The translations under genes and the position numbers were made by a program. 61,527 bases of DNA from Faecalibacterium prausnitzii (lineage in GTDB: Bacteria > Bacillota > Clostridia > Oscillospirales > Ruminococcaceae). The notes below the pieces were generated by a model that was not told the DNA's origin, did not search any database, and saw nothing but the letters and a program-made list of their open reading frames with translations. Shown piece by piece: positions 57,636 to 61,527 of the stretch. The stretch spans positions 1-61,527 of the forward strand of contig NZ_PRLE01000008.1 of NCBI RefSeq assembly GCF_003287495.1. The letters run 5' to 3'. Numbering within the stretch: the stretch's first letter is position 1; the number at the start of each line of letters is the position of its first letter.

Positions 57636-59729
57636 TTACTCCTTTTCAGACATCTGAGGGGCAGCGGACGGGAGCCAGCCCAGGGTGGTGCGGCGGATGA
57701 GGCCGTCCAGCAGCATCAGGGCGGCAGGCAGCACCACAAGGATGACCACCGTGCTGATGAGCGCGCCCCGGGAGATGAGCAGGCAGATGCTCCGCATCAG
57801 CTCGATCTGGCTGATGACAGCCACGCCGAATGTGGCGGCAAAGAACGTCAGGCCGCTGGTGAGGATGCTCTGGCTGCAGTGTTCCAGTGCCTGCTGGGCG
57901 GCCTCCCGCGGGGTGCGGCCCAGGGCGCGCTCCTCCCGGTAACGGGTGGTCATGAGGATGGAGTAGTCCACCGTGGCACCCAGCTGGATGGTGCCCAGGA
58001 TGATGCTGGCGATGAACGGAAGCGAAGCCCCGGTAAAGTAGGGGATGCCAAGATTGATGGCAATGGCGGCCTCAATGCTGGCCACCAGAATGACCGGGAT
58101 GGACAGGCTGCGGAACGAGATGAGGATGATGACAAGCACGGCCAGGATGGACCAGACGTTGACATTGGCAAAATCGTTGTCCGCAATTTCCACCAGGTCT
58201 TTCGTCATGGCGCTCTCACCGGTGACGAGGCCCTCCGGGTCCGCCGCCTTGACGAGGGCGATCATCTGCTCCACCTGCGCGTTCACGGCGTCGGAGCCGG
58301 CCTTGTAGGCACCGTTGGCCAGGATCAGCTTGTAACCGGCGTTCTGCAAAATTTCCAGAATGCCGTCCGGCAGAATCTCGGTGGGGAAGCCCGGGCCGGT
58401 GATGGCGTCCAGACTGACCACCTGGGTGATGCCGTCCAGCTCGCCGATGTCATCGCACAGGGCGCTGACCTTGGAGGCGGGCAGGTCGTCGTGGACAAGG
58501 ATGAAGTGGTTGGTCACCATACCGAAATCCTCGCCCAGCTTGCTCACGCCCACAATGCCGGGCATATCCTGCGGCAGGGCATCAAACAGGGCGTAGTAGA
58601 CAGAAGTCCTGCCCTGGGCCAGCGCAAAGGGAATGATAATGGCAATGGACGCGATCAGCACCCCCACCGGGTGGCCCGAAACAAAGTAGCTCAGGCGGGT
58701 GAGCTTGGGGATGAATGTGCGATGACGGTATTTTTCCACCCACTTGTCAAAAAAGAGGATGAGGGCCGGCAGGATGACGATGGTGCAGACCACGCCCAGC
58801 GCCACGCCCTTGGCCATGACCACGCCGATGTCCCGGCCCAGCGTCAGCTGCATGGCGCACAGGGCCAGGAAGCCCGCAATGGTGGTCAGGCTGGAAGCGG
58901 AGATGGAGGTGGTCGTCTTGCAGATGGCGTTGACCATGGCTTCCTCGTTGGAGGAGGCCAGCTCTTTTTCCTCTTCATAGCGGTGGAGCAGGAAGATGGA
59001 AAAATCCATCGTCACGCCCAGCTGCAGCACGGCGGCCAGCGCCTCGGTAATGAAGCAGACATCCTTGAGGAAGAAGTTGGTGCCAAAGTTGTACACCAGC
59101 GGGAAGAGCAGCCCCAGCATAAACAGAAGGGGTGTGATGGTGCTCTCCAACGCCAGGAACAGAATGAGCAGGCAGGCACCGCCGCCAAACAGTAAGTAGA
59201 GGGGCATTTCCTGGGTGACCAGCGCCTTGGTATCATAGAAAATGACGCTGATGCCGCCAAAGAAGCAGTCCCGCCGCAGCACCTTTTTGATCTGCGCCAC
59301 GGCCTCCATGGTCTCCTCGCTCACGCTGGAACCACCCAGCCGGACGATGAGGATGGTGGAATCGTTTTTGCCAAACAGGAATTTCTGCACATCGGCGGGC
59401 AGCATCTCCACCGGGATGGCCGGGTCTACCACGTCGCTGAGCCAGAACGTCTGCAATACGCCCGGGATGGCGTCGATGTCCTGCTTCATGGCCAGCAGCT
59501 CATGGGTGGGCAGGCCCTCCACGGTGATCATGCTGGTGGAAGCGAGTTGATAGTCGTCTTCCAGAATGAGCTGGCCCACCCGGGAGTCCAGCTCCGGCGG
59601 CAGGTAGGAGAGGATGTCGTAGTTGATGCGGGTGGCAATGGCTCCTACCGCCGAGGGGATCAGGAGCAGAACTGCGAGGATCAGGATCATTTTCCGCAGC
59701 CGGACAATGGCCTGCGCGATTTTTTTCAT
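57636..59729 (-). CDS. MMPL family RND-type transporter
   Basis: A 697-residue, 12-helix transporter made of two repeats, each with a large outside loop. The proton-relay motifs TMDFSIFLLHRYEEE and TVDYSILMTTRYREE, and the repeat-end VLPALILFFD / VLPAALMLLDG, identify MMPL (YdfJ/MmpL-like). Members move lipids or hydrophobic compounds outward. Start at ATG 59729 with GGGAGG upstream. It is followed immediately by the secreted heptad-repeat protein. Confidence 0.9.
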   Translation of the reverse strand: MKKIAQAIVRLRKMILILAVLLLIPSAVGAIATRINYDILSYLPPELDSRVGQLILEDDYQLASTSMITVEGLPTHELLAMKQDIDAIPGVLQTFWLSDVVDPAIPVEMLPADVQKFLFGKNDSTILIVRLGGSSVSEETMEAVAQIKKVLRRDCFFGGISVIFYDTKALVTQEMPLYLLFGGGACLLILFLALESTITPLLFMLGLLFPLVYNFGTNFFLKDVCFITEALAAVLQLGVTMDFSIFLLHRYEEEKELASSNEEAMVNAICKTTTSISASSLTTIAGFLALCAMQLTLGRDIGVVMAKGVALGVVCTIVILPALILFFDKWVEKYRHRTFIPKLTRLSYFVSGHPVGVLIASIAIIIPFALAQGRTSVYYALFDALPQDMPGIVGVSKLGEDFGMVTNHFILVHDDLPASKVSALCDDIGELDGITQVVSLDAITGPGFPTEILPDGILEILQNAGYKLILANGAYKAGSDAVNAQVEQMIALVKAADPEGLVTGESAMTKDLVEIADNDFANVNVWSILAVLVIILISFRSLSIPVILVASIEAAIAINLGIPYFTGASLPFIASIILGTIQLGATVDYSILMTTRYREERALGRTPREAAQQALEHCSQSILTSGLTFFAATFGVAVISQIELMRSICLLISRGALISTVVILVVLPAALMLLDGLIRRTTLGWLPSAAPQMSEKE

Positions 59730-59811
59730 GAAAAGCCTCCCATTTTGAAAAATTGACGTTTTGCGGAGAATACAAAAGCGTCCTTTGTCGTTTTTGGCAA
59801 TGTACTTTATT

Positions 59812-59840
59812 ATAATAGCCGCATTCAAAACAGGCGTCAA
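59812..59840 (-). promoter_or_regulatory. MMPL operon promoter
   Basis: On the minus strand, TTGACG (plus 59835-59840), a 17-base spacer and TATTAT (plus 59812-59817). I see nothing further between 59841 and the tRNA except A-rich sequence. Confidence 0.7.
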
Positions 59841-59953
59841 GGAGAAAACCCCGCCGGTTTGTCCATCAAAAAATAAAAAATGATGGAATTTTCAAAAAAG
59901 GGCTTGCATTTTGCAAAAACCTGTGGTAATATATCCAAGTCGATACGACATCT

Positions 59954-60029
59954 GGACGGTTAGCTCAGCTGGTAGAGCATCTGCTTGACGTGCAGGAGGT
60001 CACAGGTTCGAGTCCTGTACCGTCCACCA
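59954..60029 (+). tRNA. tRNA-Val (GAC)
   Basis: A complete 76-base tRNA with encoded CCA. The acceptor GGACGGT pairs with ACCGTCC; D arm GCTC/GAGC; anticodon stem TCTGC/GCAGG with loop TTGACGT, anticodon GAC (reads GUC/GUU); T arm ACAGG TTCGAGT CCTGT. It stands alone, immediately before the putative mobile-element edge. Confidence 0.96.
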
Positions 60030-60040
60030 TACAGTTCGTA

Positions 60041-60085
60041 CTCGAACCCGATTCTTTACGAAAAAGGGTTCGGGTACGTTTTTTG
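60041..60085 (+). terminator. tRNA-Val terminator
   Basis: GTACTCGAACCC pairs with GGGTTCGGGTAC (one wobble) around a 16-base loop, then GTTTTTTG. Confidence 0.85.
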
Positions 60086-60131
60086 TTTATCGGAGGTTCT
60101 GCGGAAGGACTACTCGGAACGGTAAACGAGC

Positions 60132-60176
60132 AAAGGCAGGGTATCACTATGATAGTGGTATCCTGCCTTTTGTTTT
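60132..60176 (+). terminator. Second terminator-like hairpin after tRNA-Val
   Basis: A long stem (AAAGGCAGG-TA-CAC with GTG-TA-CCTGCCTTT, 60132-60170) with little loop, then TGTTTT. It has no gene ahead of it on the plus strand and so may mark an element edge or insulate it. Confidence 0.7.
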
Positions 60177-60240
60177 GCGGAATCAAGTTCGCTTTGTGCG
60201 AACTTGGTCGTCACCCTATATGACGCATTGGGGGCAATCG

Positions 60241-60372
60241 CTGCGTACGTGCGTACCGGGAGAGCGTGTACACCTCTGGCAAGGTGTAACACACTAGACT
60301 TTGTCCCAAAGTCCGTGTGCTAAGGGGTCAAGCCCCTTAGAATCCCTGCGGATCGTGTACGCACGTACGCAG
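60241..60372. repeat. 16-bp inverted-repeat cassette with three hairpins
   Basis: Perfect 16-base inverted repeats (60241-60256, 60357-60372) enclose three perfect hairpins. These are TACACCT/AGGTGTA (60269-60288), GACTTTG/CAAAGTC (60297-60313, with outer CACAC/GTGTG) and CTAAGGGG/CCCCTTAG (60320-60340). There is no reading frame. The layout resembles a DNA-processing site (oriT, single-strand origin or recombination site) more than a gene; the function is not known. Confidence 0.8.
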
Positions 60373-60469
60373 AAAAATGGCAAAATTTCACTATATCGGG
60401 GTGTTCTTTCATGGTGGAGTGTGGTATACTCGGCTTAGCCCAGTAAATCGGAAGTTATGGAGGTACTTT

Positions 60470-60889
60470 ATGAACGAGAGAGAAAAAATTATCCGATTAT
60501 GGTTTGATATGTGGATTAAGAAAGCAGATTTAGGAATTGACAATATTTTTACAGATGATGTTGTATATACTGAGAGTTGGAGTCCTAAATATGAAAACCG
60601 CAAAACGGTAAAGCACTGGTTTGACGAATGGAATACACGCGGAAGTGTTCTTGTCTGGGAGATTAAGCAATTTTTTCATCAAGGCAATCAAACAATCGTG
60701 GAGTGGTATTTTAAAAGCAAAATGAATAATGGAAATGTTGAAGAATTTGACGGAATATCTTTAATTGTATGGACACAGGATAACAAAATAAAATCATTAA
60801 AAGAGTTTGGTTGCAATCTTCATAATTACAATCCATATCGAGATAGTGATATTCCCGTATTTCGAGAAGAAAAAGCAAATTGGTTTTGA
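60470..60889 (+). CDS. SnoaL/NTF2-like protein
   Basis: A 139-residue protein of the NTF2-like (SnoaL) cone fold: REKIIRLWFDMWIKKADLG, FTDDVVYTESW, VKHWFDEWN and IVEWYFKSKM follow the helix-helix-strand pattern of the family, whose members include small isomerases and binding proteins. The ATG at 60470 has GGAGG 8 bases upstream; the frame opens to 60377. Its composition is strikingly AT-rich against the GC-rich neighbours, which signals recent transfer. It sits between the hairpin cassette and the recombinase, so it is probably cargo. Confidence 0.75.
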   Translation: MNEREKIIRLWFDMWIKKADLGIDNIFTDDVVYTESWSPKYENRKTVKHWFDEWNTRGSVLVWEIKQFFHQGNQTIVEWYFKSKMNNGNVEEFDGISLIVWTQDNKIKSLKEFGCNLHNYNPYRDSDIPVFREEKANWF

Positions 60890-61142
60890 GAGGACTATAA
60901 ATTCCAGTTTGCCGTACTCGTTCCAGCAGGGTTTGGGGCAGGCACGCCCCAACAAGAAGCTGTCCCAAAGTGGCAAGAATTTTCAAGAATTGAAAATTTG
61001 TGGCCACGGGACGATTCTTGCTCTCCCCTTTTTCGCTGCGTTTCGCAATTTTCACATTTCAATCTGCTCGCAGATTGTTGACAAGCTGCGCTTGACCCGA
61101 TACTATAAAGGCAAGTCGAATACGCGCCAAGGAGGTGCAACC
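60890..61142. other. Intergenic region before recombinase
   Basis: These 253 bases hold a TTTTCAA/TTGAAAA palindrome (60983-60999 region) and the recombinase promoter at 61078-61106 (TTGACA, 17-base spacer, TACTAT). No gene is supported on either strand. Confidence 0.6.
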
Positions 61143-61527
61143 ATGACCGCCGTGATCTACGCCCGCTATTCATCCGACAGCCAGCGTGAAGCGTCCATTG
61201 AAGGGCAGCTGCGCGACTGCAAGGACTACGCCGAGAAGAACGGTATCACCGTGGTCGGCACCTACATTGACCGTGCCTATTCTGCCAAGACGGATGACCG
61301 CCCGGACTTCCAGCGGATGATAAAGGACAGCGCGAAGAAAATCTTCGATGTGGTTCTGGTCTGGAAGCTCGACCGCTTTGCACGGAATCGGTTCGATGCC
61401 GTGAACTACAAGTACCAGCTGGAAAAGAACGGTGTCCATCTGGTGTCTGTCATGGAACCCATCTCGCAGGGGCCTGAAGGCATTATGGTGGAGAGTATGC
61501 TGATTGGCATGGCGGAATACTATTCCG
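61143..61527 (+). CDS. Large serine recombinase (partial, runs off window)
   Basis: The first 128 residues of a resolvase/invertase-type site-specific recombinase. VIYARYSSDSQREASIEGQ carries the catalytic serine (S10 or S11). YIDRAYSAKTDDRPDFQRM, VVLVWKLDRFARNR and the MVESMLIGMAEYYS helix complete the catalytic domain. The frame is open to the window end, so the zinc-ribbon DNA-binding part is outside. AAGGAGG precedes the ATG. Such enzymes move integrative elements; with the tRNA and hairpin cassette upstream, this looks like the left end of one. Confidence 0.92.
   Translation, partial: MTAVIYARYSSDSQREASIEGQLRDCKDYAEKNGITVVGTYIDRAYSAKTDDRPDFQRMIKDSAKKIFDVVLVWKLDRFARNRFDAVNYKYQLEKNGVHLVSVMEPISQGPEGIMVESMLIGMAEYYS

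Follow-up and report, generated by a model that had tools for sequence, protein, structure and literature searches.

A relaxase-less integrative element of Faecalibacterium with a probable cis-acting transfer region: a MOBV-type oriT core nested in an inverted repeat

Introduction

Genomic islands without a relaxase gene of their own can be mobilised in trans, and passages of a 2017 review name the MGIs of SXT, MTnSag1 and tISCpe8 as examples (PMC5704250). According to these passages, the SXT MGIs measure 18-33 kb and carry a tyrosine integrase, MTnSag1 and tISCpe8 have a size of 1.7-2.0 kb and carry a DDE transposase; between the oriT of MTnSag1 and that of Tn916 there is probably no relationship. 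Relaxase-less mobilizable elements are regarded as common, and the same source states that comprehensive searches for them had never been carried out. For transfer origins of the MOBV type, the reference used here is the oriT of plasmid pMV158, which is given in a passage of PMC5863519 as GCACACACTTTATGAATATAAAGTATAGTGTG/TTATACTTTAC, the slash marking the nick, whose position is also stated in a passage of PMC5090054.

In this report, we describe a 132-bp cassette of Faecalibacterium prausnitzii and the integrative element to which it belongs. The window, i.e. the whole stretch of DNA that was analysed (61,527 nucleotides), is a complete contig (NZ_PRLE01000008.1 of assembly GCF_003287495.1) and ends inside a recombinase gene. 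From the letters of the window, the original prediction had described two perfect 16-base inverted repeats bounding three perfect hairpins beside a tRNA-Val gene, and had proposed a conjugative origin of transfer, a single-strand initiation site or a recombinase site.

The cassette and its surroundings

The features of the locus are collected in Table 1. The predicted architecture was confirmed: the two outer arms are 100% complementary at a spacing of 100 nt, and the three inner stems are perfect, the middle one being lengthened by CACAC (60290-60294) and GTGTG (60315-60319). The minus strand of the cassette, folded as DNA, was more stable than all of 200 shuffles (z -8.80). The cassette begins 211 bp past the tRNA gene and precedes a SnoaL-like gene and a serine recombinase gene; the neighbours named in the original prediction (tRNA-Val, a foreign-looking gene and a serine recombinase) were thereby identified as tRNA-Val(gac), a gene with a SnoaL_2 match and the N-terminal part of a resolvase-type protein. 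The stated absence of a T-tract is correct for the cassette itself and does not extend to the sequence just upstream, where a terminator-like hairpin is followed by a T-rich tail. The possible promoter of the cargo gene was not among the results of a promoter scan; its spacing was also seen in locus L006. The hairpin CAAGTTCGC..GCGAACTTG in the leader (60184-60206) recurs downstream of two primase genes of the same genome (loci L153 on contig C16 and L158 on contig C8).

Table 1 Features of the window around the cassette, in order of position, and loci of the type B elements
Feature	Position	Strand	Basis or remark
tRNA-Val(gac), host gene	59954..60029	+	ARAGORN; 3' CCACCA (60024-60029) is the insertion junction
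Element left end, 34 codons (stop included) in the recombinase frame	60024..60125	+	Frame comparison of copies
Terminator-like hairpin with T-rich tail	60132..60170	+	18 pairs; directly past the stop of the left-end 34-codon frame
132-bp cassette, MOBV-type oriT nested in an inverted repeat	60241..60372	-	Inverted-repeat search, oriT pattern and alignment, DNA fold
Outer arm, GTACGCA-repeat side	60241..60256	.	Minus-strand flank CGATTG; resembles the sequence after DUF5906-type primase genes
Inner hairpin ACACCT/AGGTGT	60270..60287	.	Perfect stem; helix 4 in the covariation test
oriT core CTTTGGGACAAAGTCTAGTGTGTTA	60287..60311	-	Sole pattern match in the window; alignment to the pMV158 oriT
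Middle inner stem GACTTTG/CAAAGTC	60297-60313		Perfect stem
Inner hairpin CTAAGGGG/CCCCTTAG	60320..60340	.	Helix 2; perfect stem TAAGGGG/CCCCTTA at 60321-60339
Outer arm, other side	60357..60372	.	Identical in 27/27 type A copies
Possible promoter TGTTCT-17-TATACT of the cargo gene	60402..60430	+	Read by eye
Variable cargo gene, SnoaL-like	60470..60889	+	SnoaL_2 PF12680, 38.4 bits (cut-off 27)
Large serine recombinase, N-terminal part	61143..61527	+	Resolvase PF00239, 107 bits; runs past the contig end
Type B loci	L038, L081-L085, L189-L191, L193, L194, L198, L210-L215		DUF4368-type serine recombinase

An integrative element at tRNA genes

The cassette is part of an element, designated type A, which is composed of the tRNA CCACCA junction, a leader, the cassette, variable cargo and a large serine recombinase gene, in this order. 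It was found in 27 copies with the same left boundary, and 12 copies with both ends visible have a length of 2.4-3.1 kb. The window's own genome (2.68 Mb in 19 contigs) contains three full cassette copies and four partial matches. Among 100 genomes searched (own included), 23 had a cassette match, and matches longer than about 140 nt were confined to Faecalibacterium. A plasmid search gave no match, a phage search gave two short partial matches, both in unannotated faecal contigs, and a scan of viral_contigs for one arm matched four contigs.

In the first 20 loci examined, 17 contained the full cassette. An intact tRNA gene is present at the left junction in 14 of these 17 (Val in ten, Met in two, Ala in two), the type A recombinase follows the cassette in 15 (it is absent in L050 and L054 and cut by the contig end in L036), and the right end lies inside the recombinase gene at ..CTCCACCA in 12; in L052 the similarity ends two bases before this point. 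The element in L041, L048 and L049 is preceded by the 3' part of a tRNA only, which suggests tandem insertion beside the attachment remnant of another element. Taking all 27 type A copies together, the recombinase was detected in 21, and three of the six misses (L202, L203, L206) reach contig ends; in L041, its product comprises a Resolvase, a Recombinase and a Zn-ribbon domain. The cargo is a SnoaL-like protein, a DUF1706 protein, a peptidase S51, a PCC-domain protein or a protein of no clear family, or there is no ORF of 45 codons. Partial repeats of the spacer and leader flank extra genes in L036, L037, L047 and L049 (in L037, for example, a GNAT acetyltransferase gene), a pattern that would fit an accumulation of short gene cassettes.

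A relaxase was not seen in the element copies: tblastn of the 27 type A stretches gave no match to MOBV relaxases, and the ORFs of complete copies (the window copy being cut by the contig end) are accounted for by cargo and recombinase. No excision factor was identified for the element either. It has the integrase of its own and the defined ends of a relaxase-less mobilizable element, and lacks the self-encoded relaxase of a canonical IME.

Twelve sites could be read at the orthologous tRNA-Val locus (L223 and L224, which the pattern could not read, and weak matches elsewhere were left out), and nine had the element leader at the junction, G022 with a short piece only. Precise empty sites, at which CCACCA is directly joined to the sequence that otherwise follows the element, were found in three relatives, with the flank taken from G030 for G025, from G009 and G015 for G028, and from G003 for G029. 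As read from these junctions and empty sites, the element is inserted where tRNA genes end in CCACCA. A typical copy carries a large serine recombinase gene of its own together with a single variable cargo gene.

Insertion has a consequence for the recombinase gene itself. The right end of the element cuts this gene in frame at ..N(A/S)PP (17 right ends in 16 loci), and the left end keeps the recombinase frame with the same stop and without a frameshift in all 27 type A copies; 15 of the 27 variable columns of these 34 codons are third codon positions. Since the left end continues the recombinase frame, an excised circle would encode a tail that is missing from the integrated form, and the 34 codons are predicted to be the recombinase C-terminus in that circle. 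The recombinase gene broken at position 61527 has close copies elsewhere in the same genome. A contig break in such a gene means that assembly gaps may hide elements of this kind.

A MOBV-type oriT core in the middle hairpin

The minus strand of the cassette has the sequence GCACACGGACTTTGGGACAAAGTCTAGTGTG/TTACACC, and by analogy with the pMV158 cleavage site TAGTGTG/TTA the nick is predicted between G60290 and T60289. An ACTTT/AAAGT stem precedes the nick sequence, which is the arrangement of a MOBV oriT. In local alignment with the pMV158 oriT as printed in PMC5863519, the cassette scored 20.5, a value reached by none of 1000 dinucleotide shuffles (maximum 12.5), and the runner-up among 1862 window tiles scored 13.0. 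The pattern CTTTN{2,12}AAAGTNTAGTGYGTTA has a single match in the 61.5-kb window, with 0.00 expected. When applied to 14 genomes of the genus, which we picked from 31 as complete or copy-rich ones, it retrieved 78 cores, compared with none for the reversed control pattern; genome G029 had no core. With respect to the three overlapping and mutually exclusive inverted repeats expected of such an oriT, the CACAC/ACTTT hairpin is present, the repeat spanning the nick in pMV158 (AAGTATA/TATACTT) is degraded, and the fold centroid contains an alternative pairing. The core is among the most conserved parts of the cassette. On these comparisons, the minus-strand sequence of the middle hairpin represents a MOBV (pMV158-type) oriT core, an identity for which sequence and synteny together make a strong case.

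The synteny concerns relaxase genes elsewhere in the genus. Strong relaxases, defined as Mob_Pre matches of at least 120 bits, number 23 in the 14 genomes, and an oriT core lies within 10 kb of 19 of them, always upstream and on the same strand; three of the other four have no core on their contig (one contig being longer than 379 kb), and one has internal stops. Weaker Mob_Pre matches above the cut-off have a core within 10 kb in only 6 of 48 cases (upstream and on the same strand in three), which links the core to the strong MOBV type. Most cores with a length of 26-29 nt are relaxase-linked: 19 of 26 lie near a strong relaxase, and two of the remaining seven are found 3.9 kb upstream of a Mob_Pre relaxase scoring 95 bits. 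The 25-nt form, to which the core of the window belongs, has 52 copies, none of which is located within 10 kb of a strong relaxase; weaker Mob_Pre relaxases were found within 5 kb of none and within 10 kb of two. The conjugative oriT at the edge of a mobile element that had been proposed is thus supported by a MOBV-type core, by its same-strand synteny with relaxases and by the empty sites of a serine-recombinase element.

The 52 short-form cores, whose association with recombinases was counted on individually fetched loci, comprise 27 in type A elements, 21 in type B elements and four in neither. The idea that copies always accompany a recombinase is contradicted in small part by the last four, for which the stretch read contained no exact outer arms and no recombinase of type A or B. 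Type B, about 3.3 kb long, is a second element with a serine recombinase, in which the outer hairpin lies 259-288 nt from the core. Its recombinase was found within 2 kb of the core in 17 of the 21 copies; among the misses, L204 and L205 reach contig ends and the rest do not. The A and B recombinases are 25% identical, and the flanks of the two element types differ. In most full type B copies, sharp ends are located near positions -190 and +3105 relative to the core, and genome G011 has six type B copies.

The outer arms and DUF5906-type primase genes

The outer arms also occur as a bare hairpin with a loop of 19-20 nt, which is found between a gene for a DUF5906/D5-like helicase-primase and a relaxase gene. 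In five of the loci read, this relaxase matches Mob_Pre only weakly, whereas in L079 (genome G025) the Mob_Pre match scores 95 bits. The motif GTACGCACGTACGCAGCGATTG or a variant of it is located 4-118 nt past the primase stop in 13 of 13 homologues with at least 72% identity, one of which (L129) is the locus of the exact hairpin in the window's own genome, and for each of these 13 sites at most two of 200 shuffles reached the score. It is likewise located in 3 of 16 more distant homologues, for some of which the primase, assigned to the longest frame that contained a P-loop pattern, may have been wrongly identified. The test comprised 30 loci, L149 not being scorable, and variants match 14-22 of the 22 positions over repeat runs, with at least 15 in the primase tests. 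An arm-like site after the primase gene occurs in other families as well, in other genera commonly without a full partner, and a similar sequence was thus found adjoining DUF5906/P4-type primase genes across lineages. Its presence beside primase homologues and its absence from most homologues of the weak relaxases indicate that the outer site follows the primase. By this association, the outer arms are a candidate replication site of a helper element.

Helper elements

Fourteen primase loci, picked among the primase homologues, were read over 11-15 kb. A strong MOBV relaxase is encoded downstream of the primase in seven of them, and in every one of these an oriT core lies upstream of the primase on the same strand, at a distance of 2.0-3.1 kb, three of these cores satisfying a looser pattern only; the other seven loci have neither a strong MOBV relaxase nor a core. 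Two of the positive loci are from G013 (same genus) and five from other genera. The same gene order is present in L101 and L102, which were chosen by their core. As every primase locus with such a relaxase has a core, one kind of helper carries both sites several kb apart, in the order oriT - primase - GTACG site - relaxase, whereas the element in the window packs both into 132 bp, with an oriT related to that of the helper.

In the window's own genome, the MOBV helper on contig C15 (L039, 1-4000) has a relaxase gene cut by the contig end, with a score of 24 bits that is below the cut-off, and primase matches in two frames; the primase loci on C16 and C8, which are without a core, have a 92-bit Mob_Pre relaxase. 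The exact outer arms in Faecalibacterium were seen beside either the type C relaxase, which is characterised by HLDESTPHIH and a weak Mob_Pre match, or the 95-bit Mob_Pre relaxase of G025, and not the strong MOBV type. The two sites of the cassette may therefore come from two helpers.

Proposed mode of transfer and alternative readings

Judging from sequence and gene order, the cassette probably serves as cis-acting transfer region for a small integrative element of Faecalibacterium that has no relaxase gene and uses the MOBV relaxase of larger helper elements. The recombinase would excise the element as a circle, in which its gene would be completed by the 34-codon tail. The MOBV relaxase of a co-resident element would then nick at TAGTGTG/TTA, and the nicked strand would exit through the secretion system of an ICE. 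A primase-helicase of the helper could bind the outer arms, by which the circle would be replicated or re-primed, and the recombinase would finally insert the circle at a CCACCA site in the recipient. A more far-reaching version, whose chances we regard as evenly balanced, is that of a minimal conjugative satellite, in which a relaxase oriT is nested in a primase replication site and both transfer and replication of the helper are parasitised. Types A and B would share both sites, nested or neighbouring, and the full recombinase C-terminus, available in the circle only, would serve as a sensor of the integration state.

The alternatives mainly concern the outer arms. It is conceivable, if rather unlikely, that these are a single-strand initiation signal, i.e. 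a hairpin on the transferred strand that is primed by the helper primase or the host RNA polymerase. This would fit the pronounced fold of the cassette, the DUF5906/D5-like protein encoded beside the bare hairpin and the presence of an sso in ICEBs1 (PMC4595007). A loss of pairing in homologues had been named as refuting the original prediction, and it was seen to a small extent: 16 of the 27 type A copies and 16 of the 21 copies of type B have arms that can pair perfectly, but in 11 of the 27 type A copies the arm at 60241..60256 varies without compensating change, one or two Watson-Crick pairs being lost and some converted to G-T wobbles on the nicked strand. Arm-like motifs lacking a full partner in other genera also speak against a hairpin signal. 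Covariation, which was considered as support for the hairpins, contributes slightly at most. Across 16 distinct cassettes, 97.9% of the cells pair, both-sided change occurs in 1 of 44 pairs (183 of 500 shuffles were as high), and the covariation score was matched by 34 of 500 shuffles; the one pair changed on both sides is in helix 2, where 93.8% of the cells are paired, and six of the eight pairs of helix 4 are invariant. One arm being invariant and the other drifting without compensation, together with the slight covariation, points to recognition of the arms as sequence more than to hairpin formation; what is conserved in them would seem to be the sequence and not the hairpin.

We regard it as improbable that the outer inverted repeat is an oriT for the type C relaxase, in which case the cassette would consist of two nested oriTs for two relaxase families. 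The arms do lie a few hundred bp upstream of a type C relaxase gene, in the same orientation, in L040, L077, L078, L080 and L086. However, when loci were taken by their type C relaxase, arms were present within 700 nt upstream in only one of seven (L122, the same place as L040); a copy in the window's own genome with 89% identity (L127) is without arms, as are L123-L126 and L128, and most of the arm-less loci share other hairpins near the gene, as seen by eye. In L079, moreover, the primase gene and the exact hairpin are followed by a different relaxase. The outer arms track the primase and not the type C relaxase. As a separate observation, the relaxases of L122-L128 (HLDESTPHIH or similar, weak Mob_Pre) have GC-rich hairpins of their own just upstream, again read by eye, which are possibly another type of oriT.

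Very little speaks for a recombination site (att or resolution) of the serine recombinase, which was among the original proposals: the cassette occurs mostly in elements with a serine recombinase (found in 21 of the 27 copies of type A and in 17 of the 21 of type B), but junctions and empty sites put recombination at CCACCA, about 210 bp away, parts of the cassette are common to elements with recombinases as dissimilar as A and B, and in six of six loci with the bare hairpin beside the primase gene, no serine recombinase was detected nearby by a simple motif scan. A structured RNA or a terminator/insulator block is just as implausible, since the strong RNA fold (z -5.27 for the plus strand of 60200-60420, with 0 of 200 shuffles equally stable) and the adjoining terminator-like hairpin are opposed by the missing T-tract, by an Rfam search over 59700-61527 in which only the tRNA reached the gathering score and the cassette had no match, and by the slight stem covariation in a cassette whose best-conserved parts include the oriT core, a DNA site for a relaxase.

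Comparison with known systems

In the literature searched, which comprised titles, passages and the beginnings of abstracts outside subscription papers, no description of this element was found. Islands with an oriT only are already known from the review passages cited above (PMC5704250); the version with a serine recombinase, a tRNA target and a MOBV oriT nested with a primase site was not seen in the texts searched. The element represents a concrete, multi-copy relaxase-less family in a human gut genus, and it may explain some of the many recombinases and mobile genes in F. prausnitzii genomes mentioned in a passage of PMC6295017. Its short signature makes such elements searchable, and the candidate nick site makes hitchhiking testable. 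If the outer arms are a helper replication site, the element would be the conjugative counterpart of defective interfering genomes.

Several described systems come close to the element described here. Tn4451 encodes a relaxase of its own, TnpZ, which is of the Mob/Pre kind, whereas the Faecalibacterium element is without one. SGI1, a large island, brings replication genes of its own, whereas only candidate cis sites are present in the Faecalibacterium element. The oriT mimics of staphylococcal plasmids belong to a different oriT type from the MOBV core of the cassette. On the side of the likenesses, the Tn4451 group consists, like the present case, of clostridial elements with a serine recombinase (passage of PMC5704250). 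SGI1 with its IncC helper is an integrated island whose transfer depends on the helper and which replicates when the helper is present (PMC7826253, PMC7433901). The staphylococcal mimics are likewise DNA without mobilization genes that imitates the oriT of a helper, but they are located on plasmids, and the Faecalibacterium unit is an integrative element (PMC8136818).

The SXT MGIs, MTnSag1 and tISCpe8 likewise combine a recombination enzyme of their own with an oriT and have no relaxase, as far as described in the passages of PMC5704250; the Faecalibacterium element differs from them by its large serine recombinase, the tRNA CCACCA target, the MOBV oriT and a second, candidate replication site. 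The closest counterpart of the core itself is the oriT of pMV158, the site of the MOBV1 relaxase MobM: both have the order GCACAC..ACTTT-loop-AAAGTnTAGTGTG/TTA, a stem adjoining the nick and the same core (passages of PMC5863519 and PMC5090054), and compared with this oriT the core of the cassette has no relaxase of its own, a shorter loop and a position inside another inverted repeat.
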